Below, piece by piece: positions 38,190 through 59,427 of a DNA stretch of 64,000 nt. This DNA is from Asticcacaulis tiandongensis (GTDB taxonomy: Bacteria > Pseudomonadota > Alphaproteobacteria > Caulobacterales > Caulobacteraceae). Under the pieces are notes generated by a model, which was not told the origin of the DNA, ran no database searches, and saw only the letters and a program-made list of their open reading frames with translations. Numbering within the stretch: the first letter of the stretch is position 1; the number at the start of each line of letters is the position of its first letter. The DNA lies in assembly GCF_006475605.1 (NCBI RefSeq), contig NZ_ML636837.1, positions 562,584-626,583 of the forward strand. The letters are read 5' to 3'. The position numbers and the translations under genes are program-made.

Positions 38190-38337
38190 ATGGTCTCTTT
38201 TGATACGGTTTCCTGTGAAATTTAAATCTGAAAAAAGACGATCTGACAAACCCCTTATGTGCAAAACTGTAACTTTACTTTCATAGTGGCAAATCGCACA
38301 CTCAGGGGCATAAACATAAAGATCAGGAAATGCCCTC

Positions 38338-43774: not shown

Positions 43775-45321
43775 AGGGTTACTCCGTTTTTCCAGATCGC
43801 GATTTCGCGCTCTTCGTTTTTTTCGTTGTTAGATAGCTGGCCAGAAGCGGTCTTAAGGATCAGATCAAGCAGACCGTCGGCGGTTTCATCAAGTGTCTGA
43901 CCCTCAAGCGCCTGACCGGCATTGAAATCGATCCAGTGTGGCTTCTTTTCCGCCAGAGCGGTGTTGGAGGCAATTTTCAGGGTCGGGGCCGGAAAGCCCA
44001 GCGGTGTGCCGCGACCGGTGGTGAACAGGACAATCACGGCACCGGCGGCGGTGAGGGCCGTGGAAGACACCGCGTCATTGCCGGGGGCCTCAAGCAGGGA
44101 CAGGCCAGATTGCGTGGCGCGTTCGCCGTAGCGCAACACTTCGGTCAGCTGGCTGGTGCCTGCCTTTTGCACAGCGCCTAAGGATTTTTCCTCTAAGGTG
44201 GTAATGCCGCCCGCCTTATTGCCCGGTGACGGGTTCTCAAACACCGGCTGATTGTGGTCGAGGAAATATTGTTTGAAGTCGTTGACGATATCGACAATGC
44301 CTTCAAAAATCTGTGCGTCTTTGGCGCGGGCCATAAGCAGCCGTTCGGCACCGAAGACTTCGGGTATTTCGGTCATGATGACCTTGCCGCCGGCAAAGGC
44401 TACGTGGTCAGCGACCCGGCCCACAAGCGGATTGGCGGTCAGGCCGGAGAAGCCGTCCGAGCCACCGCATTTGACGCCAATCGCCAGATCAGACAGGGCG
44501 CAAGGCTCACGCCGGTCGTTTTCAGCAATGGCCACAAGCGATTCCAGTGCCTCAAGACCGGCCTCGTGTTCATCCTCAACCATCTGGGCGGCGAAATATT
44601 TGAGACGATCCGGTTCGCGGCCACTGATCTCAGCAATCAGTTGGGTAAGCTGGTTGTTTTCGCAACCCAGCCCCACAATCAGTACGCCACCGGCATTGGG
44701 ATGGGCTGCGAGCGAGGCGAGAAGTTTACGCGTGTGGCTGAGGTCGTCGCCAAGCTGTGAGCAGCCAAGCGGGTGGGTCAGGGCATGGACGCCATCGACG
44801 CGGCCTTTGAAGCGTTCATTGGCCACCTTGGCCAGACGCTCAGAGGTGCGGGCGACGCAGCCCACCGTGCAAATGATCCAGATTTCGTTGCGGATGCCGA
44901 CGCGGCCATCGGGACGGCGATACCCCATGAAGCTGTGCGTCGTGTCAGGGTGCGAACCCGGCCCTTCGGCAGGTTGCGGCAAATAACTGTAATCTTCAAC
45001 GCCGCTTAAGGTGGTTTCCATATTATGGCTGTGAATATGCTCACCCGCTGCCACCGGTGTCGTCAGACGTCCGATAACAAAACCAAGCTTTAAGATCGTC
45101 TGACCGGCAGGCAGATCATAAAGAGCGATCTTGTGGCCCTTGGGGATATCGGTTTTCAGGGGCACCAACAGGTTGCCTATATCAATGACCGTACCAGCGC
45201 TTAAGGCTTCGAGGGCAACCGCCACATGGTCTTTGGCATGAACGCGCATATAGGGTTTTACCCCGGACGGCGTTATATCGCGTGGGCCAGGTGTGGCGCA
45301 GATTGTGGGGTCCTGTGGCAT
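43771..45321 (-). CDS. uxaA: Altronate dehydratase UxaA
   Basis: 516 residues from the ATG giving MPQDPTICATPG; the frame runs further up but crosses the operator and promoter, so the long form is unlikely. The N-terminal SAF domain (about residues 27-110: VHAKDHVAVALEALSAGTVI) is followed by the UxaA lyase domain with RPDGRVGIRNE, HPLGCSQLGDD, GLGCENNQ and the Fe-binding GVKCGGSDGFSG. The enzyme dehydrates D-altronate to 2-keto-3-deoxygluconate. It is the first gene of the operon uxaA-reductase-pectate lyase-esterase, preceded by a promoter whose -10 element overlaps an operator. Confidence 0.95.
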   Translation of the reverse strand: MPQDPTICATPGPRDITPSGVKPYMRVHAKDHVAVALEALSAGTVIDIGNLLVPLKTDIPKGHKIALYDLPAGQTILKLGFVIGRLTTPVAAGEHIHSHNMETTLSGVEDYSYLPQPAEGPGSHPDTTHSFMGYRRPDGRVGIRNEIWIICTVGCVARTSERLAKVANERFKGRVDGVHALTHPLGCSQLGDDLSHTRKLLASLAAHPNAGGVLIVGLGCENNQLTQLIAEISGREPDRLKYFAAQMVEDEHEAGLEALESLVAIAENDRREPCALSDLAIGVKCGGSDGFSGLTANPLVGRVADHVAFAGGKVIMTEIPEVFGAERLLMARAKDAQIFEGIVDIVNDFKQYFLDHNQPVFENPSPGNKAGGITTLEEKSLGAVQKAGTSQLTEVLRYGERATQSGLSLLEAPGNDAVSSTALTAAGAVIVLFTTGRGTPLGFPAPTLKIASNTALAEKKPHWIDFNAGQALEGQTLDETADGLLDLILKTASGQLSNNEKNEEREIAIWKNGVTL

Positions 45322-45372: not shown

Positions 45373-45386
45373 GGAAACCGGTGTCA
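45373..45386. promoter_or_regulatory. LacI-type operator upstream of uxaA
   Basis: Read toward uxaA this is TGACACCGGTTTCC, a variant of the palindrome TGACACCGGTGTCA. It overlaps the -10 element of the uxaA promoter, 52 bp upstream of the uxaA ATG, where a repressor would block transcription. Confidence 0.8.
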
Positions 45387-45412
45387 TAACGCAAAAAGAG
45401 GTGTATAAGCAA
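45384..45412 (-). promoter_or_regulatory. uxaA promoter
   Basis: On the minus strand TTGCTT (45412-45407) and TTATGA (45389-45384) are 17 bp apart. The -10 hexamer runs into the operator at 45373-45386. Confidence 0.55.
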
Positions 45413-45564
45413 GTCCGCTGTCTGATAAATCCGAACCCTTGTGAGCGGGTGTTTCCAGTGGGCGCAACCGCGTCACAGGTCACGGGCTATGGATTTACCT
45501 TTCGGTTTGTTTGTATATGGTGACGCGTTTCTTTATCCACAATCTATAATTATAAGCCGGGAAT

Positions 45565-46689
45565 ATGGCGTCTGTAAAAAACACACAGGGCACAAAAACG
45601 TCACAGGCAGTGGTGGATACGGCGGCAGATGCCGTTGAGGAATTCATCCGGCGCCGCAAAAAGGCGACCATCAATGACGTGGCGCGTCTGGCGCGGGTGT
45701 CGAAAAAGACCGTTTCGCGGGTCATTAACAACTCACCGAGTGTGCGTAATGAAACGCGCGAACAGGTCAACGACATCATTGCCCGCATAGGGTTTAGACC
45801 TGATCCTCAGGCACGTGGTCTGGCCTTCAGGCGGTCGTTCCTTTTTGGTCTGATCTATGACAATCCGAACGCGCAATATATCGTCAATATCCAGTCCGGT
45901 GCACTTGATCGCATGCGCGGCACGGGCTTTGAGCTTGTGGTGCACCCGTGTGACAAGGAAAGTGACGACTTTCTTGAGGAAATCAGGGAATTTGTTGAGT
46001 TGCAGCGTCTGGCCGGGGTGATCCTGCTGCCGCCGATTGCTGAAAATCGTGCGCTTCTGGCGGTGCTTGAGGATCTGGATGTGCCCTATGTGCGCGTCAC
46101 GGCCATGCACGGGGCGGAGAATGATCCGCCGATCCTGTCGCCGCAGGTGGTATCACGTGACCGGCATGGCTGTATGCTGGCGGCGGAGCATTTGCTCGCC
46201 CTGGGACATAAGCGGATCGGTTTTGTCACCGGGCCTGCGGGCTATGCGTCGGCCCGCGAACGGCGTCAGGGGTTTAATGAAGGTCTGAGCAAACAGGGCC
46301 TGTCTATTGATCCGGCACTTGAGGTTGAAGGGGCTTATTCGTTTGAATCGGGCCTTGAGGCGGGGCTTAAGCTGCTTGATCGGCCTGACCGGCCCACGGC
46401 GATCTTTGCCAGCAATGATGAAATGGCTATCGGCGTCTATCGCGCGGCGTTTCAGTTGGGCCTGCATATTCCCGATGATCTGAGCGTGATCGGTTTTGAC
46501 GATACGCCAGCCGCCGGACGGGTGCAGCCGCCTTTGACAACGGTGCGTCTGCCCATTCGGGATATGGGGCGTGCGGCGGCGGAAACGCTCATTGATCCTG
46601 AGGCGGAACGACGGGCATCGACCATTGTGAGCGCCAGCCTGACGGTACGCGATTCCACCGGCCCTGCGGAAACTATATTTAAACCCTGA
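45565..46689 (+). CDS. LacI-family regulator of the pectin/galacturonate genes
   Basis: 374 residues. An unusual 30-residue tail precedes the LacI helix-turn-helix (TINDVARLARVSKKTVSRVI, about 35-54) and hinge (FRPDPQARGLAFRRS). The effector-binding periplasmic-protein-like domain fills the rest, with IGFVTGPAG, AIFASNDEMAIGVY and DDLSVIGFDDTPAA. It lies between the divergent uxaA operon and uxaC. Five copies of a LacI-type palindrome in front of the pectin genes are its probable targets. The inducer is likely an intermediate such as galacturonate, tagaturonate or KDG, but the sequence does not show which. I withhold a gene symbol because several LacI and GntR regulators share the names kdgR and exuR. 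Confidence 0.9.
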   Translation: MASVKNTQGTKTSQAVVDTAADAVEEFIRRRKKATINDVARLARVSKKTVSRVINNSPSVRNETREQVNDIIARIGFRPDPQARGLAFRRSFLFGLIYDNPNAQYIVNIQSGALDRMRGTGFELVVHPCDKESDDFLEEIREFVELQRLAGVILLPPIAENRALLAVLEDLDVPYVRVTAMHGAENDPPILSPQVVSRDRHGCMLAAEHLLALGHKRIGFVTGPAGYASARERRQGFNEGLSKQGLSIDPALEVEGAYSFESGLEAGLKLLDRPDRPTAIFASNDEMAIGVYRAAFQLGLHIPDDLSVIGFDDTPAAGRVQPPLTTVRLPIRDMGRAAAETLIDPEAERRASTIVSASLTVRDSTGPAETIFKP

Positions 46690-46755
46690 GTTCGCTGGAT
46701 TGCCCTGAGTCTGCCAGATTGAAAGAGTTTCATAAAAACCTGTTGCCAAAATTCA

Positions 46756-46769
46756 TGACACCGGTTACC
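46756..46769. promoter_or_regulatory. LacI-type operator upstream of uxaC
   Basis: TGACACCGGTTACC, identical to the first TonB-receptor site. It lies 89 bp upstream of the uxaC ATG and just downstream of a TTGCCA -35-like hexamer at 46743-46748. Confidence 0.8.
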
Positions 46770-46858
46770 TAATGGGCGGGGAATGTAGCGGCAGGTTGAA
46801 AATAAAAACCCTCGATGGTTTGGCCTGTGCCAGAATTTTTAAATAACGGTTATAGATT

Positions 46859-48271
46859 ATGTCCAAGCCACTGAAACTGAACCCTGACCGTCTGTTTGCG
46901 GCTGATCCGGCGCAGCGCGCCGTGGCGCGTGAGCTTTATGATCTGGTCAAGGCCTATCCCATCCTGTCGCCCCACGGTCACACCGACCCGCAGTGGTTTG
47001 CCGACAATGAGAATTTTGGCAGCGCCACGGAACTGTTCCTCAGCCCCGACCATTATATTTACCGCATGCTCTATTCACAGGGTCATGACCTTGAGGATAT
47101 TGGAGTCGCGTCGAAGGCGGGGCCGTCAAAGGCGGATCACCGCAAGGCGTGGAAGCTGTTTGCCTCCAATCAGCACCTGTTCCGCGGCACGCCGACCGCC
47201 ATGTGGACCAGCCATGTTTTCGGCGAGATCATGGGCTTTGATGTGCAGTTGTCGGCCGAAACAGCCGATCATTATTTTGATCGCATCGGTGAGCTTCTGG
47301 CGTCCGACGCCTATAAGCCGCGCGCCCTGTTTGAGCGCTTCAACATCGATCTTCTGGCGACGACGGAATCGCCGACCGATACGCTTGAGCATCACGTCAA
47401 AATCCGTGACTCCGGTTGGCAGGGTCGTGTGGTCACTGCCTACCGCCCTGATCCGGTGATCGACGCTGAACACGAAGATTTCCGTGAAAAGATGCAGGTC
47501 TTTGCCGAATTGTCGGGCGAGGATGTCTATACGTGGAAGGGCTATCTTCAGGGGCACCGTGTGCGCCGCGCCTTCTTTAAATCATTGGGCTGCACCTCAT
47601 CTGACCATGGTCACCCGACCGCCCGCACGGCCAATCTGTCGTCGGCGGATTCCGAGGCTCTGTTCAACCGCATCATCAAGGGGGACTTTACGGCAGCAGA
47701 TGCCGAGTTGTTCCGCGCCCAGATGCTGACGGAAATGGCCCGCATGAGCCTTGATGACGGGTTCACGGTTCAGATTCACCCCGGCTCATACCGTAATCAC
47801 AACCAGAAAATCTTTGAGACCTATGGCCGTGACAAGGGCTGCGATATCCCGATGGCCACGGGTTATGTCAATGAACTGAAGCCGTTGCTTGATGCCTTTG
47901 GTAATGAAAAAGACCTGACGGTTATTCTGTTTACGCTCGATGAGACCTCTTATGCGCGTGAACTGGCGCCATTGGCGGGTCATTATCCGATCCTGAAGCT
48001 TGGCCCCTCATGGTGGTTCCACGATTCCCCCGAGGGCATGACGCGCTTCCGCGAGCAGGTCACGGAAACCGCTGGTTTTTACAATACGGTGGGGTTCAAT
48101 GATGATACCCGCGCCTTCCTGTCGATACCGGCCCGTCACGATGTGGCGCGTCGTATCGACGCCAATTTCCTGGCGCGACTGGTGGTTGAGCATCGTCTGG
48201 ATATTGATGATGCGGCCGAAACCATCAAGGATCTGACCTATAATCTGCCCAAGGCGGCCTATAAGCTTTAA
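46859..48271 (+). CDS. uxaC: Uronate isomerase UxaC
   Basis: 470 residues, the family's normal length. It isomerises D-galacturonate to D-tagaturonate (and glucuronate to fructuronate), the first cytoplasmic step of the pathway. The metal-site motif SPHGHTDPQWF near residue 38, LLATTESPTDTLEHH, VQIHPGSYRNHN and GFNDDTRAFLSIPARHD are characteristic of this amidohydrolase-superfamily enzyme. It has its own operator upstream and a strong terminator 29 bp downstream, so it forms a single-gene unit in the regulon. Confidence 0.97.
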   Translation: MSKPLKLNPDRLFAADPAQRAVARELYDLVKAYPILSPHGHTDPQWFADNENFGSATELFLSPDHYIYRMLYSQGHDLEDIGVASKAGPSKADHRKAWKLFASNQHLFRGTPTAMWTSHVFGEIMGFDVQLSAETADHYFDRIGELLASDAYKPRALFERFNIDLLATTESPTDTLEHHVKIRDSGWQGRVVTAYRPDPVIDAEHEDFREKMQVFAELSGEDVYTWKGYLQGHRVRRAFFKSLGCTSSDHGHPTARTANLSSADSEALFNRIIKGDFTAADAELFRAQMLTEMARMSLDDGFTVQIHPGSYRNHNQKIFETYGRDKGCDIPMATGYVNELKPLLDAFGNEKDLTVILFTLDETSYARELAPLAGHYPILKLGPSWWFHDSPEGMTRFREQVTETAGFYNTVGFNDDTRAFLSIPARHDVARRIDANFLARLVVEHRLDIDDAAETIKDLTYNLPKAAYKL

Positions 48272-48299
48272 GCTTTGCGGGTACCCAACCTGAACAAGG

Positions 48300-48330
48300 A
48301 AGTGCGAGGGAAAACTCTCGCACTTTTTTT
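48300..48330 (+). terminator. Terminator after uxaC
   Basis: GTGCGAG (48302-48308) pairs with CTCGCAC (48317-48323) and is followed by seven T. It separates uxaC from the transporter operon. Confidence 0.9.
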
Positions 48331-48411
48331 ATGATCAATCACGAAAATTACGGAAAATGTGATGATGTTCGTGGTTGAAAAAGAAGGTTTGCCTGTGAAG
48401 CTGGTTGAAAA

Positions 48412-48425
48412 TGACACCGGTTTCC
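48412..48425. promoter_or_regulatory. LacI-type operator upstream of the ABC transporter operon
   Basis: TGACACCGGTTTCC, the same 14-mer as the uxaA site read toward uxaA. It directly follows TTGAAA (48405-48410, -35-like) and precedes TATACA, so it lies between the promoter elements, 49 bp upstream of the GTG start. Confidence 0.8.
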
Positions 48426-48473
48426 TATACAGATCGATACAATACAAAAAACAAAAAAGCATAATGGGGAAAC

Positions 48474-49610
48474 GTGGTGACCAATAGTGTCAAACTCACC
48501 GACGTCAAAAAGTCCTTTAATGGCCATGAGGTCATCAAAGGTGTGTCCTTGGAAGTCAAAAAGGGCGAACTGGTTGTCTTTGTCGGGCCTTCGGGCTGCG
48601 GGAAATCGACGCTTCTGCGTTTGATCGCGGGCCTTGATACACCGACTTCGGGCGAAATTCATATCTCGAACAAGGACGTCACCTATGCTCATCCGTCCAA
48701 GCGCGGCGTGGCTATGGTCTTTCAGTCCTATGCGCTTTATCCGCATATGACGGTGGCGGATAATATCGCCTTTGCCCTGAAAATTCAGGGCCTTCCCCGT
48801 GCTGAGGTTGATGCCAAGGTGGCCGAGGTCGCGGAAATTCTGCAACTGACGCCGCTGTTGAAGCGTCGTCCCAAGGCGCTTTCGGGTGGCCAGCGCCAGC
48901 GGGTGGCCATTGGCCGCGCCATTGTGCGTCAGCCGGATGTCTTCCTGTTTGATGAGCCGCTGTCGAACCTTGATGCCTCGCTGCGTGGTCAGATGCGGGT
49001 CGAGATTGCGCGGCTTCATGCCAAGCTGGGGGCGACCTCGGTTTATGTGACTCACGATCAGGTTGAGGCCATGACTCTGGCCGATAAGATCGTCGTTTTG
49101 AACGCCGGTCATATTGAGCAGGTGGGTTCGCCCATGGAGCTTTATCGTCGTCCGGCCAATCTGTTTGTGGCGCGCTTTATCGGTTCGCCCAATATGAACA
49201 TCCTGTCGGTCAAGGTGGCGGGGGCTGCGGCGACCACGGTGACGCTTGAGACGCCTCAGGGGCTGCTTGAGATCCCGCGCACAGGCGTGGTTGCGACGAA
49301 TGGCGACACGGTCAGTCTTGGGCTGAGGCCGGAAAACCTGCATGTGGCTGCTGACGGTGAGGCTTCACACCTCAAGGGGCATGTGGTTCTGATTGAGCGT
49401 TTAGGCGGCGAGACCTTCGCCTATGTGGCGCTGAAGGATTTTGGCAATGATCCGGTGATTATCAAGCTGTCGGGTGAGGCTGACCTGCACAACCATCAGG
49501 AAGTTGGTCTCAGGGTCGATCTTGATCGGGCGCACCTGTTTGATGCGCAGGGACTGGCGTTAGGGCAGCCTTTGGGCGCAGCGCCGGATGTGGGGGCGGG
49601 GCATGTATAA
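48474..49610 (+). CDS. Sugar ABC transporter ATPase (UgpC/MsmX type)
   Basis: 378 residues from GTG, preceded by GGGG. The ABC core has Walker A GPSGCGKST near residue 38, the signature LSGGQRQRVAIGRA, Walker B VFLFDEPLSNLDA and the H-loop VTHDQ. The C-terminal regulatory TOBE domain (residues 240-370) is that of carbohydrate importers. It energises the two permeases that follow and overlaps the first by 8 bp. It is the first gene of a six-gene plus-strand operon running to 56247, apparently for oligogalacturonides. Confidence 0.95.
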   Translation: MVTNSVKLTDVKKSFNGHEVIKGVSLEVKKGELVVFVGPSGCGKSTLLRLIAGLDTPTSGEIHISNKDVTYAHPSKRGVAMVFQSYALYPHMTVADNIAFALKIQGLPRAEVDAKVAEVAEILQLTPLLKRRPKALSGGQRQRVAIGRAIVRQPDVFLFDEPLSNLDASLRGQMRVEIARLHAKLGATSVYVTHDQVEAMTLADKIVVLNAGHIEQVGSPMELYRRPANLFVARFIGSPNMNILSVKVAGAAATTVTLETPQGLLEIPRTGVVATNGDTVSLGLRPENLHVAADGEASHLKGHVVLIERLGGETFAYVALKDFGNDPVIIKLSGEADLHNHQEVGLRVDLDRAHLFDAQGLALGQPLGAAPDVGAGHV

Positions 49611-50505
49611 CAACAAGCTGATAGGGTCGATGTATGTCACGCCCTTTATTATCGGTTTCCTGCTGTTCACTGCCTTTCCGTTTATCGCCTCCTTTGTGCT
49701 CAGTCTGACGGATGCCCGCTTGCAGGATCAGCTGGGGGCGGCGAACTTTACGGGTTTGGCCAACTATGGCGAGATGGCTGGTGATGCGACCTTCCAGAAA
49801 TCGCTGGGGGTGACGTTTTTCTATGTGTTCGTCACGGTGCCGCTGAAACTGGCCTTTGCCTTGCTGATCGCCGTGATTTTGAACTTCAAGCTCAGGGGGA
49901 TCGGTTTTTTCCGTACCGCCTTTTATCTGCCATCCATTCTGGGGGGGTCGGTAGCCATTGCGGTGGTCTGGCGCTTTGTTTTCGCCGGTGACGGCCTGAT
50001 CAATCAGGCGTTTGGCGTGCTGGGGTTCGGCGGTATCAACTGGCTGGGTGAGCCGGATACGGCCATGTTCTCGATTGTGCTGCTGCGTTTGTGGCAGTTC
50101 GGCTCGGCCATGGTGGTGTTTCTGGCCGGTCTTAAGGCCATTCCTGAAGACCTTTATGAAGCCGCCGATATTGACGGCGCCTCACGCTTTAAGCAGTTCT
50201 GGATGATCACCCTGCCGCTTCTGACGCCGGTGTTGTTCTTTAACTTCATCATGCAGATTGTTCAGGCATTTCAGGAGTTTAACGGGCCATACATCATTAC
50301 CGCCGGTGGGCCGCTCAAGTCGTCCTATCTCCTGCCGCTGATGATCTATGAGGAGGCGTTCAAATACTTCAATCTGGGCTATTCCTCGGCCCTGTCCTGG
50401 GTATTGTTCGTCATTATCGCCATATTTACCGCCGTCGCCTTCTGGTCGCAGAAACACTGGGTGTTCTATGCGCAGGAACGGGACGACAATAAGGGAGGGC
50501 ATTAA
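49603..50505 (+). CDS. Sugar ABC transporter permease 1 (MalF/UgpA type)
   Basis: 300 residues from the ATG giving MYNNKLIGSMYVTPF, which overlaps the ATPase stop by 8 bp; an ATG 15 bp earlier is possible. Six membrane segments are expected, and the EAA loop is EAADIDGASRFKQFWMITLPLL. It forms the inner-membrane channel with the next gene product. The EAA motif contacts the ATPase encoded just upstream. Confidence 0.93.
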   Translation: MYNNKLIGSMYVTPFIIGFLLFTAFPFIASFVLSLTDARLQDQLGAANFTGLANYGEMAGDATFQKSLGVTFFYVFVTVPLKLAFALLIAVILNFKLRGIGFFRTAFYLPSILGGSVAIAVVWRFVFAGDGLINQAFGVLGFGGINWLGEPDTAMFSIVLLRLWQFGSAMVVFLAGLKAIPEDLYEAADIDGASRFKQFWMITLPLLTPVLFFNFIMQIVQAFQEFNGPYIITAGGPLKSSYLLPLMIYEEAFKYFNLGYSSALSWVLFVIIAIFTAVAFWSQKHWVFYAQERDDNKGGH

Positions 50506-50507
50506 TC

Positions 50508-51389
50508 ATGGCCTCAACGACATCTCATGCCCCCGATGCGGGGTGGCGCAAACATCTGCCGGTGCTTAATGCGCTGCTGCGTTATGGTATTCTGATAATT
50601 ATCGGTTTCCTGATGCTCTATCCGCTGTTCTGGATGATCGGCGGATCGTTCAAGAACAACCATGAAATCTTTTCGAGCATTGGCTTTATCCCTAAGGAGC
50701 CGACGCTTGACGGGGTGATCAATGGCTGGAAAACTTCGACGGAATATACCTTCGCCACCTATCTGATTAACACCTTCAAGATCGTGATCCCTAAGGTCAT
50801 TGTGACGGTGATTTCTTCGGTGATCGTCGCCTATGGCTTTGCCCGCTTTGCCATTCCGGGCCGCAAATATCTGTTTGCGCTGCTTATGGCTACGGTACTT
50901 CTGCCGAAGTCGGTGCTGCTCATCCCGCAGTATCTGATGTTCCGTGAGTTCGGCTGGCTTGATACCTATCTGCCGCTCTATATTCCGCAGGCTTTTGCGG
51001 TTGAGGGCTTCTTTGTCTTCATGATCATCCAGTTCATGCGCTCGCTACCGCTTGAGATGGAAGAGGCGGCGGTGATGGATGGCTGTAACTCGTTTCAGGT
51101 GCTGACGCTTATTGTGGCACCGGTGATCCTGCCGGCGATTATTGCCGTGGCCCTGTTCCAGTTTATGTGGAGCATGAACGACTTCCTTCAGCCGCTGATC
51201 TATCTCTCAAGCGTTGAGAAATATCCGGTGGCGCTGGCGCTCAAGATGTCGATTGATGTCACCGAAGCGACCTCATGGAACGAGATTCTGGCCATGTCTA
51301 CGATTGCCATTGCGCCTTCGCTGATCCTGTTCTTTGCCGCGCAAAAATATTTTGTCGATGGCATCACCTCCGGCGCGGTGAAGGGGTAA
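50508..51389 (+). CDS. Sugar ABC transporter permease 2 (MalG/UgpE type)
   Basis: 293 residues with six predicted membrane helices. The EAA loop EMEEAAVMDGCNSFQVLTLI lies around residue 185. The gene starts 2 bp after permease 1 with GGAGGG before the ATG. It is the second half of the translocation channel and is followed 4 bp later by the binding protein gene. Confidence 0.93.
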   Translation: MASTTSHAPDAGWRKHLPVLNALLRYGILIIIGFLMLYPLFWMIGGSFKNNHEIFSSIGFIPKEPTLDGVINGWKTSTEYTFATYLINTFKIVIPKVIVTVISSVIVAYGFARFAIPGRKYLFALLMATVLLPKSVLLIPQYLMFREFGWLDTYLPLYIPQAFAVEGFFVFMIIQFMRSLPLEMEEAAVMDGCNSFQVLTLIVAPVILPAIIAVALFQFMWSMNDFLQPLIYLSSVEKYPVALALKMSIDVTEATSWNEILAMSTIAIAPSLILFFAAQKYFVDGITSGAVKG

Positions 51390-51393
51390 GGCT

Positions 51394-52701
51394 ATGGGAC
51401 ATATGCTTAATCGCCGTCATCTTCTGGCCGGAACTGTGGCGGCGGGGGCTGCGACAGCCCTTGCGGGGTGCAGCCCGAAACAGGGCGCTTCGGACAGTGA
51501 ATTGCGCATCAGCTGGTGGGGCGGGTCATCGAACCACCGCGCCACGCTTGAGGCTCTGCGCCTGTTTGAGGAAGCCAATCCCGGTGTGCGTGTCAAGGGC
51601 GAATATACCGGCTTTTCCGGTCACCTTGAACGCCTGACGACGCAGCTGGCGGGGGATACGGCACCCGATGTCATGCAGATCAACTGGTACTGGCAGACCC
51701 TGTTCTCTCGTGACGGCAAGGGGTTCTTTGATCTGAACGGATTACGTGACATTATCGACCTGAGCCAGTTCGATGCGCGCACCCTTCAGATGGGGACGAC
51801 CAATGGGCATCTGAACGCACTGGCGGTAACCAATGCCGCCCGTCTGTTCTATTTCAATGCCACGACCTTTGATAAGGCGGGCGTGGCCTTGCCTGCGACC
51901 TGGGATGAACTGAAGGCTACAGGCCCGCAGATGCACAAGGCGCTTGGGGATGCCTATTATCCGATCGATGGCACCTTTCAGGATTTTGCCGCTCTGGCGC
52001 GGTCCTATGTGGTGCAGAAGACCGGCAAGCCGCTCGTTGATACGGCCACCAAGAGCCTGAACTGCTCGCCTGAGGATATGCGCGAGGTGGCGCAGCTCTA
52101 TACCGATCTGACACAGGGTCATACCTGGCCTGCGGCACGAGTGCGGGCCTCTTACGGCAATGTGCCGCAACAGGAAATGCGTCCGTGGATCAATGGCGAA
52201 TATGCCGGTACCTATCAGTGGAATAGCGCCATTGATAAATATACCGACACGCTCAGTCCCGGTCAGACGGTAAAGCTGGCGCCCTATCCCATGCGTGACG
52301 GCGCGACCGATGCGGGGCTTCTGTATCGACCGGCCATGCTGTTTGTGATTAACCGCAACTGCAAGCAACCGGAAGCGGCGGCGCGGCTGATCAACTTCCT
52401 GCTCAATGATCCGGTGGGTGTACGGGCCATGGGGCTGATGCGCGGGGTGCCGGTGTCGGCTATTGCGCAAAAGACGCTGAAGGATGACGGACTGCTGGAT
52501 GGCCTCAAGCTTGAGAGCGAAGCCCAGATTGCCGACCTGCCCAAGACCGTACTGGAAAGTCCCTATTTTGAGCATCCGCGCGTGCGGGATGGCTTTCAGG
52601 ATATCCTTGAGGGGCTGGGTTATGGTCGCGTGTCACAAAAGGAGGCCGGTGAGCGTCTCTATACCGACATCAATGCCATATTGCATCGGGTTGTACGCTA
52701 A
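51394..52701 (+). CDS. Extracellular sugar-binding lipoprotein of the ABC transporter
   Basis: 435 residues, family 1 solute-binding protein. The N-terminus combines a twin-arginine-like NRRHLLAGTVAAGAATA with a lipobox LAGC (Cys at about residue 26), so the mature protein is probably a lipoprotein in the periplasm. ISWWGGSSNHRATLEALRLF and DVMQINWYWQTLF are typical of the family. It should bind the oligogalacturonides delivered through the outer membrane by the TonB receptor downstream. The ligand is inferred from the neighbouring GH28 and GH105 genes. Confidence 0.92.
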   Translation: MGHMLNRRHLLAGTVAAGAATALAGCSPKQGASDSELRISWWGGSSNHRATLEALRLFEEANPGVRVKGEYTGFSGHLERLTTQLAGDTAPDVMQINWYWQTLFSRDGKGFFDLNGLRDIIDLSQFDARTLQMGTTNGHLNALAVTNAARLFYFNATTFDKAGVALPATWDELKATGPQMHKALGDAYYPIDGTFQDFAALARSYVVQKTGKPLVDTATKSLNCSPEDMREVAQLYTDLTQGHTWPAARVRASYGNVPQQEMRPWINGEYAGTYQWNSAIDKYTDTLSPGQTVKLAPYPMRDGATDAGLLYRPAMLFVINRNCKQPEAAARLINFLLNDPVGVRAMGLMRGVPVSAIAQKTLKDDGLLDGLKLESEAQIADLPKTVLESPYFEHPRVRDGFQDILEGLGYGRVSQKEAGERLYTDINAILHRVVR

Positions 52702-52703
52702 TC

Positions 52704-54263
52704 ATGTCTGACCAGACTAAGCCTGAGTTGCGCCTTATTGCGGATTTGCCTACGGCCCTGACCTTTGAGGTGTGTGACGGCAGTGTGTATCAGGCAGGCG
52801 GCCCGCGGCAGGTCTGGGTCAATGATCAGCCGGTTCTGGAGACGGCACTGAATGTCTTTACCCTAAGGGAGCTAAGCCCGGATACGGTCTATCGCGTACG
52901 GGTCGACGGACTTGAGGTGGTGGTGCGCACCGAAACCCTTAAGGCGATTGTCGATCCGAAGCGCTTCGGGGCTAAGGGTGATGGTGTTACGGATGATACC
53001 CATGCGCTTCAAGCGGCGATTTCGGCCTGTCCGATCAACGGGCTGGTGCGTCTTGAAGCGGGTCAGTATCTGACGGGGCCGTTGTTCCTCAAAAGCTGTA
53101 TGGCACTTGAGATTACAAAGGATGCCCGTTTGCTGGGGCAGCGCGATATCAGCCGCTGGCCTATATTGCCCGCCATATTGTCCGATGCCAGTGGCGCAGA
53201 CGGGGCTTATCTGGGGACATGGGAAGGCGAGGCTTTTGATTGCCATGCCGGACTGATCAATATCCTGTCGGCCCATAATGTCAGTATTTATGGTGAGGGT
53301 GTGATTGACGCGCAGGCCGGTTTTGACAACTGGTGGAGCCGTCCGAAAACGCCGTTTGAACAGGGGGAACTGACCGCCTGGCGTCCGCGCCTGTTTTTTG
53401 CGGTCGATTGCGAGCACATCACCGTCGAAGGTATCACTGTGCAGAACAGTCCGTCATGGACGGTGCATCCGGTCAATTCGCGCTGGCTGACCTTTGCCAA
53501 TATGAAAATCAAAGCCCCGGCCGATAGTCCGAACACGGACGGGCTCAATCCCGAAAGCTGCACCGATGTCACCATTGCCGGTGTACATTTTACGGTCGGC
53601 GATGACTGTATCGCGCTTAAGTCCGGTAAGATCAGCATGGCCAAAAAACGCCTGCGTCCGACGCGGCGTGTGACGATCTCAAACTGCTGGATGCAGGATG
53701 GTCACGGGGCAGTGGTGATCGGTTCAGAGATGGCTTGCGGCGTTTATGATGTAAGCGTGAAGAACTGCCTGTTTACCGGCACGGATCGCGGCCTGCGCCT
53801 TAAGACACGTCGTGGACGCGGGAGTGAGGCGGTGGGGCGTAATATCCGCTTTGAAAACATCCTGATGAAGGGCGTGGGGACGGCCTTTGTTATCAACAGT
53901 TTCTACTGGTGCGATCCGGACGGCAAGACCGACTATGTCGCCGACCGCAAGGCGCGGCCTTTGGATGAGGGGACGCCGTCTCTGGGCGGGGTGTCTTTGA
54001 AGAATGTGCGTTGCGAAGGGGTGCGCCACGCCGCCATCTATCTGCTGGGACTGCCGGAACAGCCGATAGATGGGGTTGAGGTAGACGGGTTTTACGTCCG
54101 CTATGACCCTGAGGCCGAAGCCGGGGAACCCGACATGGCCGCCACTATTCCGCCCGTGCGCCATGTCGGCGTTTATATTTCTGCGGCAAAAAACATCCGC
54201 CTGAATGGCCTCGATATCGAGGGGCAGGACGGTGAAAAAATTATACTGGAAGATGTGACATGA
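52704..54263 (+). CDS. Polygalacturonase, glycoside hydrolase family 28, without signal peptide
   Basis: 519 residues. Residues 1-80 form a small beta-rich, fibronectin-III-like domain, and the beta-helix GH28 domain starts at FGAKGDGVTDDTHAL. The catalytic set is complete: NTDG (277-280), GDDC (299-302), GHG (333-335) and the RxK-type RLKTRRG. This two-domain layout resembles exo-polygalacturonases. There is no signal peptide, so it probably works in the cytoplasm on imported oligogalacturonides, releasing galacturonate or digalacturonate for UxaC. It lies 2 bp after the binding protein gene and overlaps the GH105 gene by 4 bp. Confidence 0.93.
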   Translation: MSDQTKPELRLIADLPTALTFEVCDGSVYQAGGPRQVWVNDQPVLETALNVFTLRELSPDTVYRVRVDGLEVVVRTETLKAIVDPKRFGAKGDGVTDDTHALQAAISACPINGLVRLEAGQYLTGPLFLKSCMALEITKDARLLGQRDISRWPILPAILSDASGADGAYLGTWEGEAFDCHAGLINILSAHNVSIYGEGVIDAQAGFDNWWSRPKTPFEQGELTAWRPRLFFAVDCEHITVEGITVQNSPSWTVHPVNSRWLTFANMKIKAPADSPNTDGLNPESCTDVTIAGVHFTVGDDCIALKSGKISMAKKRLRPTRRVTISNCWMQDGHGAVVIGSEMACGVYDVSVKNCLFTGTDRGLRLKTRRGRGSEAVGRNIRFENILMKGVGTAFVINSFYWCDPDGKTDYVADRKARPLDEGTPSLGGVSLKNVRCEGVRHAAIYLLGLPEQPIDGVEVDGFYVRYDPEAEAGEPDMAATIPPVRHVGVYISAAKNIRLNGLDIEGQDGEKIILEDVT

Positions 54264-55438
54264 CGGCAAAACTGGATTTAACCCATACAATTCCTGAGGA
54301 TGTGGCCAACGCAGCGGTGCAGCGCGATCTGACCCTGAGCGCCGAAACGGCGTCGGCCCTGTCGGCATTTGGGGCGCAGGTGCCGGTGTTTCTGCAAAAC
54401 TATCTGCGCACATGGTCGCCTTATCGTCCCTGGTGGAACTATGAGGACGGACTGATCTGGAAGGGGGCGCTTGATCTCTATGGCGTGACCCGTGATCAGG
54501 CCTTGCTGGACTATGTGCTGGCGGAAATGGAGACGCGGGTTCTGCCTGATGGGTCAATGCCGACCTTCCTGCCCAAGGAATATAATATCGACCATGTAAA
54601 CGGCGGCAAGATTCTGTTTCCGCTATACGCGTTTACGGGCGAAGAGCGTTTCCGCAAGGCAATGGATGTCCAGTTTGCCCAGCTTAAAGAACATCCCCGC
54701 ACGCAGTCAGGCAATTACTGGCACAAGCAGATCTATCCGAATCAGGTCTGGCTGGATGGCCTGTTTATGGCGCAGCCTTATCAGGTCGCCTATGCAAAGA
54801 TTACAGGCGATGAGGCCTTGTTTGCCGATAGCGTGCAACAGTTTCTGAACGTCGAGTGCCTGCTGAAAAAGACAGAAAACGGGCTTTACTTCCACGGTTG
54901 GGACGAAAGCCGGGCCGAGCGCTGGTCTGATCCGGATACCGGTTTGTCACCCAATGTCTGGGGACGGGCGATGGGCTGGTGGATAGGCGCATTGGTCGAG
55001 GTCTATGAGGCTTCGGAGGGGCTGGATCTGAATTTGCGTGGCGAAATCGCCCGCATTACCCGCGATACCTTAGGGGCGCTGATGACGTACCGCTCTGAAA
55101 ATGGCCTGTGGTATCAGGTCGTCGATCAGGGCGCGCGCGAAGGCAATTACGAAGAAGCCTCGGCTTCGGCCATGATCGCCTATGGCTTGCTTAAGGCCGC
55201 GCGCTTTAAGGTGGTCGGGCCGGAACTGGGGCGGGCGGGTCTTGAGTCGCTGAAGGCGGTTACGGCACGTTTTGTGACCCCTTCGGCGCTGAACGGTATC
55301 TGTGGGGTGGCGGGGCTCGGCAATACGCCCTATCGTGACGGTTCATACGAATATTATCTGTCTGAAAAAATCACACCCAATGACCCGAAGGGGGTCGGGG
55401 CGTTGATGTGGGCACTTACTGAAGGTTTAAAAGCGTGA
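54260..55438 (+). CDS. Unsaturated galacturonyl/rhamnogalacturonyl hydrolase, GH105
   Basis: 392 residues, an alpha/alpha-barrel enzyme of the YteR/RhiN group. It removes the unsaturated uronic acid left at the non-reducing end by a lyase. SPYRPWWNYEDGLIWKGAL, HKQIYPNQVWLDGLFMAQP-type (Asp as catalytic residue), and SPNVWGRAMGWWIGALVEV are conserved. No signal peptide is visible, consistent with cytoplasmic action. It overlaps the GH28 gene by 4 bp and the hydratase gene by 4 bp, so it is tightly coupled to both. Confidence 0.92.
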   Translation: MTAKLDLTHTIPEDVANAAVQRDLTLSAETASALSAFGAQVPVFLQNYLRTWSPYRPWWNYEDGLIWKGALDLYGVTRDQALLDYVLAEMETRVLPDGSMPTFLPKEYNIDHVNGGKILFPLYAFTGEERFRKAMDVQFAQLKEHPRTQSGNYWHKQIYPNQVWLDGLFMAQPYQVAYAKITGDEALFADSVQQFLNVECLLKKTENGLYFHGWDESRAERWSDPDTGLSPNVWGRAMGWWIGALVEVYEASEGLDLNLRGEIARITRDTLGALMTYRSENGLWYQVVDQGAREGNYEEASASAMIAYGLLKAARFKVVGPELGRAGLESLKAVTARFVTPSALNGICGVAGLGNTPYRDGSYEYYLSEKITPNDPKGVGALMWALTEGLKA

Positions 55439-56247
55439 ATATTGATAAGATTGCCTCGTCGTTCGTAACGGCCCGCCGCGAAGCCCGCGCCCTTGATGGC
55501 TATCCGGGCGACGTGCCCGCACATTTATCGACTTCCTATGCCATTCAGGAAGAGGCGATAGGCCTGTGGAACCGTCCTGTCATTGGCTGGAAGATCGGGC
55601 GTCTGGCACCGGATTATCAGCCGGTGCATCAGACGGAGCGACTGGCTGGGCCGATTTTTGACACGATGTTCAAGCCATCAGCAGGTGAGGTTGAGGTGCC
55701 GGTATTTGATGGTGGGTTTGCTGCTGTCGAGGCCGAATATATCTTTCGTGTCGGCCATGACGCCGATCCGGCAAAAACGGACTATAGCGAATCCGAGGCG
55801 CATCAGCTGATTGATGCGCTGTTTGCCGGTATTGAAATGGCTGGCTCGCCTCTGGCGACAATCAATAAGCTGGGGCCGACCGTGGTGGTTTCGGATTTCG
55901 GCAATAATTTCGGGCTGATATTGGGGCCGGAACTGCCTTTCGATCCGGCCAAAGTGTCGGACATGCGGGCGGAAACGGTCATTGACGGCCAAAGCGTCGG
56001 TACAGGTGGATTACACGCCATGCCGGGCGGGCCGCTGGCGGCGATTGGCTGGCTGGCCGGGCATCTGGCGCGTCGCGGCAGGCCACTGCGCAAGGGGCAA
56101 TTGATTTCATCGGGGGCCACGACCGGTATTCATGACATAGTTGCGGGTCAGGCCTCTGTTGTTACTTTTGAAGGGCCGGATCATGCGCCGGTCGAAATCA
56201 GACTTAAGGCGGTGCCGTTAACCGCATCGGCTGCGGAACTGGCCTGA
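55435..56247 (+). CDS. MhpD-like 2-keto-4-pentenoate hydratase family protein
   Basis: 270 residues from a GTG that overlaps the GH105 stop (GTGA). The protein resembles the MhpD/HpaH hydratases of aromatic meta-cleavage pathways: GWKIGRLAPDYQ, VEAEYIFRVG with acidic metal ligands, AGIEMAGSP, and GLHAMPGGPLAAIGWLAGHL. No aromatic pathway gene is nearby; it is the last gene of the oligogalacturonide operon. It may act on an unsaturated 2-oxo or 5-keto acid derived from the GH105 product, in place of the missing kduI/kduD, but this is only an inference from position. Confidence 0.8.
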   Translation: MNIDKIASSFVTARREARALDGYPGDVPAHLSTSYAIQEEAIGLWNRPVIGWKIGRLAPDYQPVHQTERLAGPIFDTMFKPSAGEVEVPVFDGGFAAVEAEYIFRVGHDADPAKTDYSESEAHQLIDALFAGIEMAGSPLATINKLGPTVVVSDFGNNFGLILGPELPFDPAKVSDMRAETVIDGQSVGTGGLHAMPGGPLAAIGWLAGHLARRGRPLRKGQLISSGATTGIHDIVAGQASVVTFEGPDHAPVEIRLKAVPLTASAAELA

Positions 56248-56343
56248 TACATAAGCTGAAATATGGCAGATATGTCACTTTTGGCATCTTGTTGATATTT
56301 CAGCCTTGTCATCACGCCGGAATTATGGCTAGCTAGCCTCAAT

Positions 56344-56357
56344 TGACACCGGTTACC
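56344..56357. promoter_or_regulatory. LacI-type operator 1 upstream of the TonB receptor
   Basis: TGACACCGGTTACC, identical to the uxaC site. TTGACA at 56343-56348 overlaps it and could be a -35 element. Confidence 0.8.
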
Positions 56358-56369
56358 TATGCTCAGCGG

Positions 56370-56383
56370 TGACACCGGTGTCA
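56370..56383. promoter_or_regulatory. LacI-type operator 2 upstream of the TonB receptor
   Basis: TGACACCGGTGTCA, a perfect 14-bp palindrome and the best copy in the window. Its centre is 26 bp from that of operator 1, so two dimers could bind nearly in phase. Confidence 0.85.
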
Positions 56384-56483: not shown

Positions 56484-59321
56484 ATGACTAAACCAATTCA
56501 CACCAGACGTGTGTCTGCCTTTATTCGTTATGGTGCCTCACTGGCGGCCATGATGTCCGTCTGCGCCGCCGGTCAGGCCTTTGCGCAGGCGCAACCGGTC
56601 GAAGAAGATATCGAAACCGTCGTGGTAACCGGTTTCCGTGGCTCATTGCAGTCATCAATTGCAGCCAAAAAACGTGAAAACGCTATTGTTGACGTTATTA
56701 CTGCCGAAGATATTGCGGATTTTCCGGACAACAATCTGGCTGAATCCTTGCAGCGTATTCCCGGTATCGCTATTGACCGCGATGGCGGTGAAGGTCGCTC
56801 GATCACCGTGCGTGGTCTGGGACCGCAGTTTACACGTGTGCGTATCAACGGTCTGGAAGCTTTGGCGACGACCGGTGGTAAGGATACAACCGGTGCCAAC
56901 CTGGATCGCGGCTTCGACTTTAACGTTTTCGCCTCAGAATTGTTCCGCTCGTTGACTGTACGTAAGTCGCAGTCGGCGATTGTCGACGAGGGATCGCTGG
57001 GGGCAACGGTTGATCTTCAGACATCGCGTCCTTTTGACTATAAGGGCTTCGTCATGGCTGCCGGTGTTCAGGCCGCCTATAATGACCGCTCCAAGGATAC
57101 TTCACCCCGCACCACCTTCCTCATCTCGAACCGCTGGGCGGATGGCAAGATCGGGGCTTTGCTGTCGGTAGCCTATTCCGAGCGTAATATCTTCGAAGAA
57201 GGCCCTTCGACGGTGCGCTGGGAAAATGCCTATAACCAGTCTAATGGCCTGCGCTTCCAGAACTATTCGACGGATGGCGGCGCAACATTTACAGCCATAC
57301 CGACCAGTGGCACCCTTACCGGCGAAGCGCTTCGCATTTCTCAGGCCCTGCACCCGCGTATTCCACGTTATGGCCGTATGAGCTATGACCAGTCACGTCT
57401 GGGTGTAACTTCGGCAATTCAGTTCCGTCCTTCTGAGGCGACGCTTGTTACCCTTGAAGGGCTTTATTCAAAGTTCCGTGCTGACCGTACGGAGCATTAT
57501 CTTCAGGCGCTGTCGTTTAGCCGTGGTGGTGCAGGTAATCCGATCACCGATATTTATGATTACACCATTTCTGATACGGGTGTAATCACTAAGGCCAGCT
57601 TCAATGATGTGGATGTACGCTCCGAGACCCGCTTCGATGATCAGTCTTCGACCTTTGGCCAGTTGAGCCTGACGATTGATCACCGTTTCACAGACAAGTT
57701 ATCGGCCTCATTGCGCGTCGGTTCATCTAAATCGGTACAGAATAATCCACGCCAAACCACTATTACGCTCGATGCCTATGATATTGATGGCTACAGCTAT
57801 GATTTCACAAACCGTGAAAAGCCAGTGTTTAATTACGCCACGAATAATGGTGTAGGGGTTGATAATCTGGCCTATTGGACCTTTTCAGGGTCAGCGGCTC
57901 TGGGTGATGCATCGATTATCCGTATTCGCCCAAATAAAACGAATAACCGCTTTGATAACCTTGCACTTGATTTCACGTATGATCTGAATGACAGCCTGAC
58001 CCTCAAGTTCGGGGCATCGCAGAAGAAATTTGATTATGATACGTCGCAACAGCGCCGTAGTTCCGAAGCTATTCCAGCGGCCGATGTTGCCATTCTCAAT
58101 GCAGATATCGCACGCTACACCCATACTGTTTCGGGTTTTGGCAACACATGGTTTGTGCCTGATCTGGATGCTATACAGGACGCCATCAATTACGAGGGCG
58201 GCCAGGGTGCTTATGCTACAGGTGGGGCGTCCGTGGGCGGCGCTCGTGGTCTGAATCGCGATGCCAAGGAAAAAGATACGGGTTATTATGTGCAGCTTGA
58301 CTTCCGCACCGTGCTGGGCAGCATTCCGGTTCGGGGTGACATCGGTGTGCGTCAGGTCAAAACCGAACAGACTACGCGTGGATGGACATCGGCGACCAAT
58401 TTTATCACGGCGCAACGTGAATATGACGATACCTTACCGTCTTTGAACGTAGCCATTGAACCGCTGGACAACTTCTTTGTTCGTTTTGCGGCGGCAAAAA
58501 CCATGGCCCGTCCTTTGCTGGGCAACCTGACGCCGGGTGGGACGCTTAATACCAATACACGTGTCTATACCGGCGGCAACCCTGCGCTTGATCCGATCCG
58601 GTCAACCAACTACGATCTGAACTTCGAATATTATGCGAGCTCAGAAGCTCTGTATTCTATCGGCTTCTTCCAGAAGGACATCGATTCCTACATTCAGGTT
58701 CGTCGTTATTCCGCACCGTTCAGCAGCATAGGTCTTGATCCAAGCGAACTGGCGGGTACAGGCCAGAGCCCTAGCGATCTTTATGATATCCAGAACCCCA
58801 TCTCGACACCGGGTGGTACTCTGAAAGGCTTTGAAGTCAATATTCAGCAACCATTTACGTTCTTGCCGGGCATTTTGCGTAATACAGGTGGTATCTTCAA
58901 CTATACTCAGGTCGAGTCCAAGATTGAATACTATACCTCCCCGACGATCGCGACTACGCGGACAGAGAACCTTCTCGGCCTGTCGCCGAAATCCTGGAAC
59001 GCTACACTGTACTATGAAGATTCCAAGTTCTCAGGGCGTGTATCGGCGGCCTATCGTGACAAGTATCTGGTCAGTCTGCTGCCGGGTTCAGGGGCTGACT
59101 TCTACGGCAAGAATGAGACCCTCAACTTTGATGCGGCGGCAAGCTACAAGATTTCAAACCGCGTAACCCTTACGTTTGAGGGCATCAACCTGACCGATGA
59201 AGCCGACGATCGTTATGTGTCCTACGCACAAACGGCGACAGGTAACACGGAACAGAACGCCTTGCTGGAATACAGCCAGTCAGGTCGTCAGTTCATCTTT
59301 GGTCTGCGTTACAAATACTAG
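56484..59321 (+). CDS. TonB-dependent receptor, probably for oligogalacturonides
   Basis: 945 residues. The signal peptide (YGASLAAMMSVCAAGQAFAQ) is followed by a TonB box-like ETVVVTG and the plug domain (PDNNLAESLQRIPGIAIDR, then GEGRSITVRGLGPQFTRV). The 22-strand barrel makes up the rest and ends in aromatic GLRYKY, as outer-membrane proteins do. The plug is of the Caulobacter-type subfamily common for carbohydrate uptake. Two operator copies upstream tie it to the pectin regulon. It would pass oligogalacturonides to the periplasmic binding protein of the adjacent ABC system. Confidence 0.93.
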   Translation: MTKPIHTRRVSAFIRYGASLAAMMSVCAAGQAFAQAQPVEEDIETVVVTGFRGSLQSSIAAKKRENAIVDVITAEDIADFPDNNLAESLQRIPGIAIDRDGGEGRSITVRGLGPQFTRVRINGLEALATTGGKDTTGANLDRGFDFNVFASELFRSLTVRKSQSAIVDEGSLGATVDLQTSRPFDYKGFVMAAGVQAAYNDRSKDTSPRTTFLISNRWADGKIGALLSVAYSERNIFEEGPSTVRWENAYNQSNGLRFQNYSTDGGATFTAIPTSGTLTGEALRISQALHPRIPRYGRMSYDQSRLGVTSAIQFRPSEATLVTLEGLYSKFRADRTEHYLQALSFSRGGAGNPITDIYDYTISDTGVITKASFNDVDVRSETRFDDQSSTFGQLSLTIDHRFTDKLSASLRVGSSKSVQNNPRQTTITLDAYDIDGYSYDFTNREKPVFNYATNNGVGVDNLAYWTFSGSAALGDASIIRIRPNKTNNRFDNLALDFTYDLNDSLTLKFGASQKKFDYDTSQQRRSSEAIPAADVAILNADIARYTHTVSGFGNTWFVPDLDAIQDAINYEGGQGAYATGGASVGGARGLNRDAKEKDTGYYVQLDFRTVLGSIPVRGDIGVRQVKTEQTTRGWTSATNFITAQREYDDTLPSLNVAIEPLDNFFVRFAAAKTMARPLLGNLTPGGTLNTNTRVYTGGNPALDPIRSTNYDLNFEYYASSEALYSIGFFQKDIDSYIQVRRYSAPFSSIGLDPSELAGTGQSPSDLYDIQNPISTPGGTLKGFEVNIQQPFTFLPGILRNTGGIFNYTQVESKIEYYTSPTIATTRTENLLGLSPKSWNATLYYEDSKFSGRVSAAYRDKYLVSLLPGSGADFYGKNETLNFDAAASYKISNRVTLTFEGINLTDEADDRYVSYAQTATGNTEQNALLEYSQSGRQFIFGLRYKY

Positions 59322-59400
59322 GGCCTCAGAGATGGCCCGTCTTTTCGGAGGCGGGCCTCTAGTAAGCGTTTTCCTTTTCTTTTTCCAAACTATACCTCTG

Positions 59401-59427
59401 GCGCCGGAGCAATCCGGCGCTTTTTTT
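59401..59427 (+). terminator. Terminator after the TonB receptor gene
   Basis: GCGCCGGA pairs with TCCGGCGC around GCAA and is followed by seven T. A second, weaker hairpin (GGCCCG/CGGGCC) lies at 59335-59358. Together they separate the receptor gene from kdgK. Confidence 0.92.

Follow-up and report, generated by a model that had tools for sequence, protein, structure and literature searches.

A conserved LacI-family regulator and its predicted operators at the pectin-use genes of Asticcacaulis tiandongensis

How does a bacterium that carries genes for pectin depolymerization, uptake and catabolism side by side coordinate their expression? The question is raised by a 64-kb stretch of the Asticcacaulis tiandongensis genome (hereafter the window; G000:C15:562584-626583 of a 3.2-Mb genome in 22 contigs), in which a gene for a LacI-family regulator stands among uronate-catabolic genes, a transporter and hydrolase operon and a gene for a TonB-dependent receptor. 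A preliminary description of this DNA predicted that one repressor governs uptake, depolymerization and catabolism through five copies of a palindrome. We find that the regulator gene is linked to, and co-occurs with, sites before uronate-catabolic genes, and that conservation and co-occurrence support well the idea of a single LacI-family regulator for all three functions, its binding being predicted from sequence. We give a probability of roughly 0.83 to a real, conserved pectin regulon in which a dimeric LacI-type repressor would bind TGACACCGGT-type operators and be released by a pectin-derived sugar acid.

The five sites lie where they had been placed. One (45373..45386, minus strand) is the candidate operator of the uxaA-uxaB-pelZ-esterase gene row, a second (46756..46769, plus strand) that of uxaC, and a third (48412..48425, plus strand) that of the operon encoding an ATP-binding cassette (ABC) transporter, glycoside hydrolases of the GH28 and GH105 type and orf270. 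The TonB receptor gene has a distal (56344..56357) and a proximal one (56370..56383), both on the plus strand and, as described, 26 bp apart. The reading as five copies of TGACACCGGTGTCA had to be dropped, because the exact palindromic 14-mer is present only at 56370-56383, with two mismatches at 45373 and 48412 and three at 46756 and 56344. These four nonpalindromic sites have in common TGACACCGGT followed by TWCC, and belong to what we call the polar type, with 48412 and the minus strand of 45373 both reading TGACACCGGTTTCC, and 46756 and 56344 both reading TGACACCGGTTACC. All five contain the ACCGGT core that had been pointed out and are even operators centered on CG, as in the LacI/GalR family; most of our scans demanded this core, so its frequency is not an independent count.

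Are these sites more than chance hits of a generic LacI-type sequence? When as many as three mismatches to TGACACCGGTGTCA are allowed, the window holds 15 matches, compared with 2.37 expected, and none of 100 shuffles reached 15. Ten of the 15 are not among the sites, and two of these, with only two mismatches, lie in frames (45049 inside uxaA, and 62451 inside the frame 61313-62467). The assertion that no copy lies inside genes is thus incorrect for the palindrome. It holds for TGACACCGGT, which occupies exactly five places in the window, all of them outside genes if uxaA starts at 45321 or later, while the intergenic share of 36000-64000 is 7.6% by a hand-entered gene list. With the palindromic place counted twice the window count is 6, against a mean of 0.12 and a maximum of 2 in 300 simulated sequences. 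The longest uxaA frame extends to 45483 and contains the 45373 operator; because the operator falls within this extension, uxaA probably begins with the ATG at 45321.

The regulon had also been called local, which is wrong, as three more intergenic sites are found elsewhere in the genome. Specifically, a genome-wide pattern search with a reversed-pattern control yields 25 distinct places of TGACACCGGT (control, 9). Eleven of these have a C at position 13 (TGACACCGGTNNC), eight being intergenic, i.e. seven before pectin or sugar genes and one before pntA, and three within genes. The other 14 include a single intergenic place, and one of their "coding" cases is a small frame of 116 aa. The C is therefore enriched at intergenic places (8/11 vs. 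1/14, P = 0.001; 3/6 vs. 1/14, P = 0.06, when the five window sites are excluded). The site at C16:266439 precedes a second TonB receptor gene (1143 aa), followed by GH95, pectate-lyase-type, GH43 and pectinesterase genes. That at C10:1294098 lies between a divergent ABC row, which includes an arabinofuranosidase-like gene, and a pair formed by a major facilitator superfamily (MFS) gene and a DUF2264 gene, and C10:88147 (L020:10148-10161) is an exact palindrome 184 bp before pntA. The three genic TGACACCGGTNNC places fall in the C16 pectin region, in genes for a pectinesterase, a GDSL esterase and a TonB receptor. This search also tested the refutation named beforehand, many equally good matches elsewhere: 16 of the 25 TGACACCGGT places lie inside open frames, and most of the C13-type places do not. 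These genic places and the ten additional window matches favor a chance origin; given the conservation and co-occurrence results that follow, this explanation, already disfavored, appears extremely improbable.

Conservation within the genus was counted in 25 genomes, this one included. The uxaA-side site is present in 24, the contig ending there in the 25th, and the uxaC-side site stands beside lacI with identical letters in 22; in one genome (G006, the same as L042) the uxaC site is farther off. A site lies 80–313 bp ahead of the second TonB receptor homologs at 20 of 26 places. The MFS importer has one at 20 of the 30 places with loci examined, the search having given more matches than loci. 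The pntA site is found in 9 genomes, and its letters are kept in lineages with differing flanks.

The same sites accompany the regulator well beyond the genus. We fetched 80 loci with lacI orthologs of alpha- and gammaproteobacteria, and in 65 of them lacI is flanked by at least one site (54 on its 5' side, 58 on its 3' side, 47 on both); these 65 span Asticcacaulis, Hyphomonadaceae, Nitrospirillum, Sphingomonadales and Lysobacterales-type records. Upstream sites are found at 28 of 30 uxaC homologs, at all four ABC ATPase homologs, where every site is of the TTCC type, and at 42 of 51 orf270 homologs, while all 39 TonB receptor homologs have one within 350 bp of the estimated start. The 0/35 obtained for uxaA in this count is an artefact of an over-extended query and was discarded; uxaA-side sites were counted from the lacI flanks.

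We also asked whether regulator and sites occur together across the class, using 142 genomes in which LacI was called at an E-value of at most 1e-85. At least two TGACACCGGTWWCC sites, the polar form of the operator, are found in four of the six genomes with LacI and in none of the 136 without. Leaving out the discovery genome gives 3/5 vs. 0/136 (P = 2e-5, although related genomes are not independent and such P values overstate the case). In three genomes (G103, G054 and G139), both TGACACCGGTWWCC sites lie within 5 kb of lacI.

The regulator itself (45565..46689, plus strand; 374 aa) was correctly recognized, though not "in the middle" of the span, since it lies near one end, between uxaA and uxaC. 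It has the features of the LacI/GalR family, i.e. an N-terminal helix-turn-helix (PF00356, 5.7e-17) and a periplasmic-binding-protein-like domain (PF13377, 1.9e-41), and CcpA, a ribose repressor, LacI and PurR are among the solved structures that match it best. Its closest named relatives are Asticcacaulis records, and all 24 other genomes of the genus that were searched carry an ortholog (best-match identity 63–75%). Residues Y17 and Q18 of LacI act in the recognition helix; the two matching positions are KK in all 80 orthologs, the helix here reading SKKTVSRV. The genome encodes six LacI genes, and the other five carry PM, IK, AK, TA and PK. AGCGCT- or ATCGAT-type palindromes lie near three of these five.

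Separately, TGACAGCGCTGTCA and TGACATCGATGTCA palindromes are seen at G000:C10:1306316, 1310372 and 764760, C10:107869 and C15:243571, and are probably operators of paralogous LacI proteins. A two-mismatch palindrome scan (46 places, reversed control 9) mixes them in and was not used for counts.

What distinguishes the operators from one another is their shape. The polar form, TGACACCGGTWWCC, joins a strong half TGACACC to a distinct half GGTWWCC that points towards the gene, while operators of the LacI/GalR family usually have two like inverted halves, as most sites at the second receptor, the importer and pntA do here. Within the genus, 41 of 46 uxaA and uxaC sites are polar (including 19 of 24 on the uxaA side), compared with 2 of 49 at the promoters of the second receptor, the importer and pntA, the remaining 47 being nonpolar (Fisher P = 8e-19, uncorrected for kinship; the 49 are the sites in which the TGACACC half is perfect, places that lack a site being left uncounted). 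"Palindrome" is thus the wrong word for most sites at catabolic genes. In the window, the TonB receptor has one operator of each shape. The flanks of the 80 lacI genes hold 140 ACCGGT cores, counted without demanding either half. Ninety read TGAC..TWCC towards the gene, 6 are reversed and 44 are mixed or unrelated, and none combines two TGAC halves or two GGWA halves. Sites are exclusively polar at 25 of 28 uxaC, 39 of 42 orf270 and all four ABC homologs with sites. Receptor homologs differ, 18 of 39 having only nonpolar sites, 16 both and 5 only polar, so that 34 have a nonpolar one. Shape divides sharply by gene role within Asticcacaulis and incompletely beyond it; given these receptor counts, a split across alpha- and gammaproteobacteria at large was abandoned.

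Could two proteins be at work, the window LacI reading the polar uxaA and uxaC sites and a paralog those of near-palindromic form at the second receptor, the importer and pntA? The sharp division of site classes by gene in the genus would fit, as would the presence of six LacI genes, two of which (TA and PK) show no TG-type operator in their own loci. Yet both shapes stand 26 bp apart at one window promoter and occur together at 16 of 39 receptor homologs, and the 14–16 kb surrounding each of the five remaining LacI genes contain no TGACACCGGT. Furthermore, TGACACCGGTGTCT is the reading both of the lacI-flanking sites and of one receptor site in two loci (L044 and L045), where a second receptor site reads TGACACCGGTGGCG, and TGACACCGGTATCA accounts for 5 of the 24 uxaA sites of the genus. 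Since TGACACCGGTGTCT flanks lacI and TGACACCGGTATCA stands at uxaA, one LacI plausibly reads both shapes, and we consider a division of labor between two proteins unlikely.

The asymmetry might also be a by-product of the promoter, in which case a -10 or -35 element, and not the protein, would constrain the GGTWWCC half. Downstream of lacI (45 sites, near-copies removed), only a TT at -13/-12 and the operator-adjacent base exceed 0.5 bit among the flank columns; in this profile columns 1–10 are invariant by selection, and only columns 11–14 and the flanks are informative. The TT would be the start of a -35 element, placing TWCC at the -10 after a 17-bp spacer, and all 28 uxaC sites share a single fixed direction. 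On the uxaA side (34 sites, near-copies removed), however, no such columns appear, and in several sphingomonad loci the TTGACA of the operator resembles, by eye, a -35 element in another register with the same TACC half. The genome-wide enrichment of C at position 13 in intergenic places also runs against a pure promoter effect. The operator had been said to overlap the -10 element of uxaA, which is doubtful: the best promoter-like match (ATGACA-18-CATAAT, 45387-45358) puts it on the -35 element and spacer, and our scan gave 13 promoter-like sites where chance gives 10.5 (standard deviation 4.1), i.e. no excess. We hold the by-product explanation to be possible, if doubtful. The polar half may be due in part to promoter overlap, and we think that protein and promoter both constrain it.

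Returning to the single conserved regulon, a number of observations weigh against it or against parts of it. The pntA site is absent from 16 of the 25 genus genomes, and 15 of the 80 loci have no site beside lacI, although two of them lack most of the 3' flank. Six of the 15 are Nitrospirillum-type paralog loci (L074-L078 and L080) that have the same KK helix and no TGACACCGGT site anywhere in the locus, which speaks against a simple helix code. In the 80 loci, own upstream sites are found at 0 of 22 mfs, 3 of 41 kdgK and 0 of 7 paeX homologs; mfs follows orf270 on the same strand in several loci. Across the class, two genomes with a LacI match (G044 and G052) lack TGACACCGGTWWCC, and eight without LacI have a single TGACACCGGTWWCC, the reversed control giving four single hits. 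The separation of shapes is unclean, with a polar site at 21 of 39 receptor homologs and polar sites at the ABC importer operon; some of the former may serve the divergent pelZ gene. Finally, the overlap of operators with promoters depends on a weak consensus.

How would such a regulon work? The LacI-family protein would act as a dimeric repressor of pectin use, binding at the promoters of the uronate-catabolic genes and of the ABC/GH28/GH105 operon. It would also act at two TonB receptors with pectin-degrading operons, at the operon of a sugar-acid-type MFS importer and, in A. tiandongensis and some related species, at the transhydrogenase genes pntAB. Repression would be by promoter occlusion, relieved by a pectin-derived sugar acid. 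Our first guess for this effector is 2-keto-3-deoxygluconate (KDG), followed by galacturonate or tagaturonate, because both pectin branches meet at KDG and because of the gene content of an Erythrobacter locus (L083). Its fetched 21 kb contain lacI, pectate-lyase, kdgK, orf270 and receptor homologs and no match to uxaA, uxaB or uxaC, which may lie elsewhere in the genome. Polar sites would bind more weakly, keeping a basal level of the inducer-making enzymes. Uronate catabolism bypasses glucose-6-phosphate dehydrogenase, and pntAB could supply NADPH when carbon enters below this enzyme. More tentatively, a single LacI repressor could use two designs, a polar one at inducer-making enzymes, conserved across alpha- and gammaproteobacteria, and a near-palindromic or paired one at receptors, the MFS importer and the transhydrogenase. 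If this speculative scheme is true, operator shape sets the order of induction, and pntAB adds NADPH that uronate catabolism does not provide.

The regulon is known in kind, wider than first stated, and has an unusual conserved asymmetry of its catabolic operators. In Dickeya, KdgR is one repressor of pectin depolymerization, uptake and KDG formation and is released by KDG; it is of the IclR family, with protein and operator unrelated to those here. Passages of a comparative-genomic reconstruction of 1303 LacI-type regulators (Ravcheev et al. 2014; PMC4052901) describe ExuR, KdgR, UxaR and UxuR, a monophyletic UxaR/UxuR/KdgR branch being named in Bacteroides. These are likewise LacI-family regulators of glucuronate and galacturonate use, with mostly even operators, a central CG and most sites 30–140 bp upstream of starts. 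Their motifs are given as palindromes of highly conserved inverted repeats, whereas most catabolic-gene operators here are polar. The same passages list GluR of Caulobacter, a LacI-family protein of the Caulobacterales with a 20-bp palindrome, whose predicted targets are central carbohydrate genes and not pectin genes. UxuR2 of Algoriphagus also combines a LacI-family regulator, galacturonate and glucuronate genes and a transporter, but it belongs to another organism, the transporter is of the tripartite ATP-independent periplasmic type and the passages name no TonB receptor (PMC5507952). The multipartite carbohydrate utilization systems proposed in Xanthomonas include a polygalacturonate-induced locus in which the TonB receptor XCC0120 stands beside pectin methylesterase and pectate lyase genes, and the passages listed from this paper name no regulator or operator for it (PMC1790865). 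Among the matches listed, we recognized no paper describing this operator or regulon; the search did not extend to regulon databases and subscription journals. The locus offers a testable map of pectin-use control in TonB-receptor-rich bacteria, with control possibly widened to redox supply through pntAB and to the uncharacterized hydratase-like gene orf270. In addition, the polar and palindromic operators that one LacI-type protein seemingly reads form a natural series, useful for studying the role of operator symmetry in vivo.

As for the genes themselves, the leftward row from 45373 (minus strand) begins with a uxaA-like dehydratase (43771..45321; TIGR03248, E 3.2e-84, below cut-off) and a uxaB/uxuB-like hexuronate reductase (42338..43774; NF011611, E 2.6e-105, and NF002969, 9.5e-45, both below cut-offs). 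A PelZ-like pectate lyase (40922..42286; NF041900, E 1.4e-99, below cut-off) and an esterase distantly like the pectin acetylesterase PaeX (40067..40912; NF041902, E 1.5e-18, far below cut-off) follow. Rightward (plus strand), LacI is followed by the uronate isomerase gene uxaC (46859..48271; NF002794, 565 bits, cut-off 387) and by a sugar ABC transporter (48474..52701) with an ATPase above the NF008653 cut-off, two permeases below theirs and a probable binding protein, assigned from a weak match and gene position. Next come a GH28 polygalacturonase-like gene (52704..54263; PF00295; NF051860, E 2.7e-141, below cut-off) and a GH88/GH105-type unsaturated-uronyl hydrolase-like gene (54260..55438; PF07470), the name GH105 being that of the preliminary description. 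The product of orf270 (55435..56247), a recurrent member of the putative regulon, is distantly like 2-keto-4-pentenoate hydratase (NF008461, E 2.4e-8, far below cut-off; E 3.9e-7 to the structures 1sv6/2wqt) and has no Pfam match of its own. Two KduI-type matches are found in the genome, so orf270 is not required as a KduI replacement. The TonB-dependent receptor (56484..59321) is of the Xanthomonas-Caulobacter type (TIGR01782, 650 bits, cut-off 310), and a KDG-kinase-like gene follows. Matches above curated cut-offs are thus those of uxaC, the ABC ATPase and the receptor, and several other names rest on matches below them.

The last gene, kdgK, had been excepted from the regulon. This is right for the present genome, in which no site lies upstream of it and a terminator-like hairpin (59400-59421; 9 pairs, 7 of them G-C, then a T run) separates it from the receptor gene; elsewhere in the genus, some kdgK genes have sites. 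The upstream 1.5 kb of 24 genus kdgK genes, serving as a natural control, contain one perfect-half site at -95, five sites 902–930 bp upstream and two weaker 10-of-14 matches. The five probably belong to the preceding gene of an operon; in one locus with this layout (L037) the site stands before the orf270 homolog that precedes kdgK.

Two further proteins are encoded elsewhere in the window: one of 938 aa (21912-24728) with N6 methylase and Type ISP C-terminal specificity domains, and one of 680 aa (36393-38435) in which a PP2C-type phosphatase domain is fused to a protein kinase domain.

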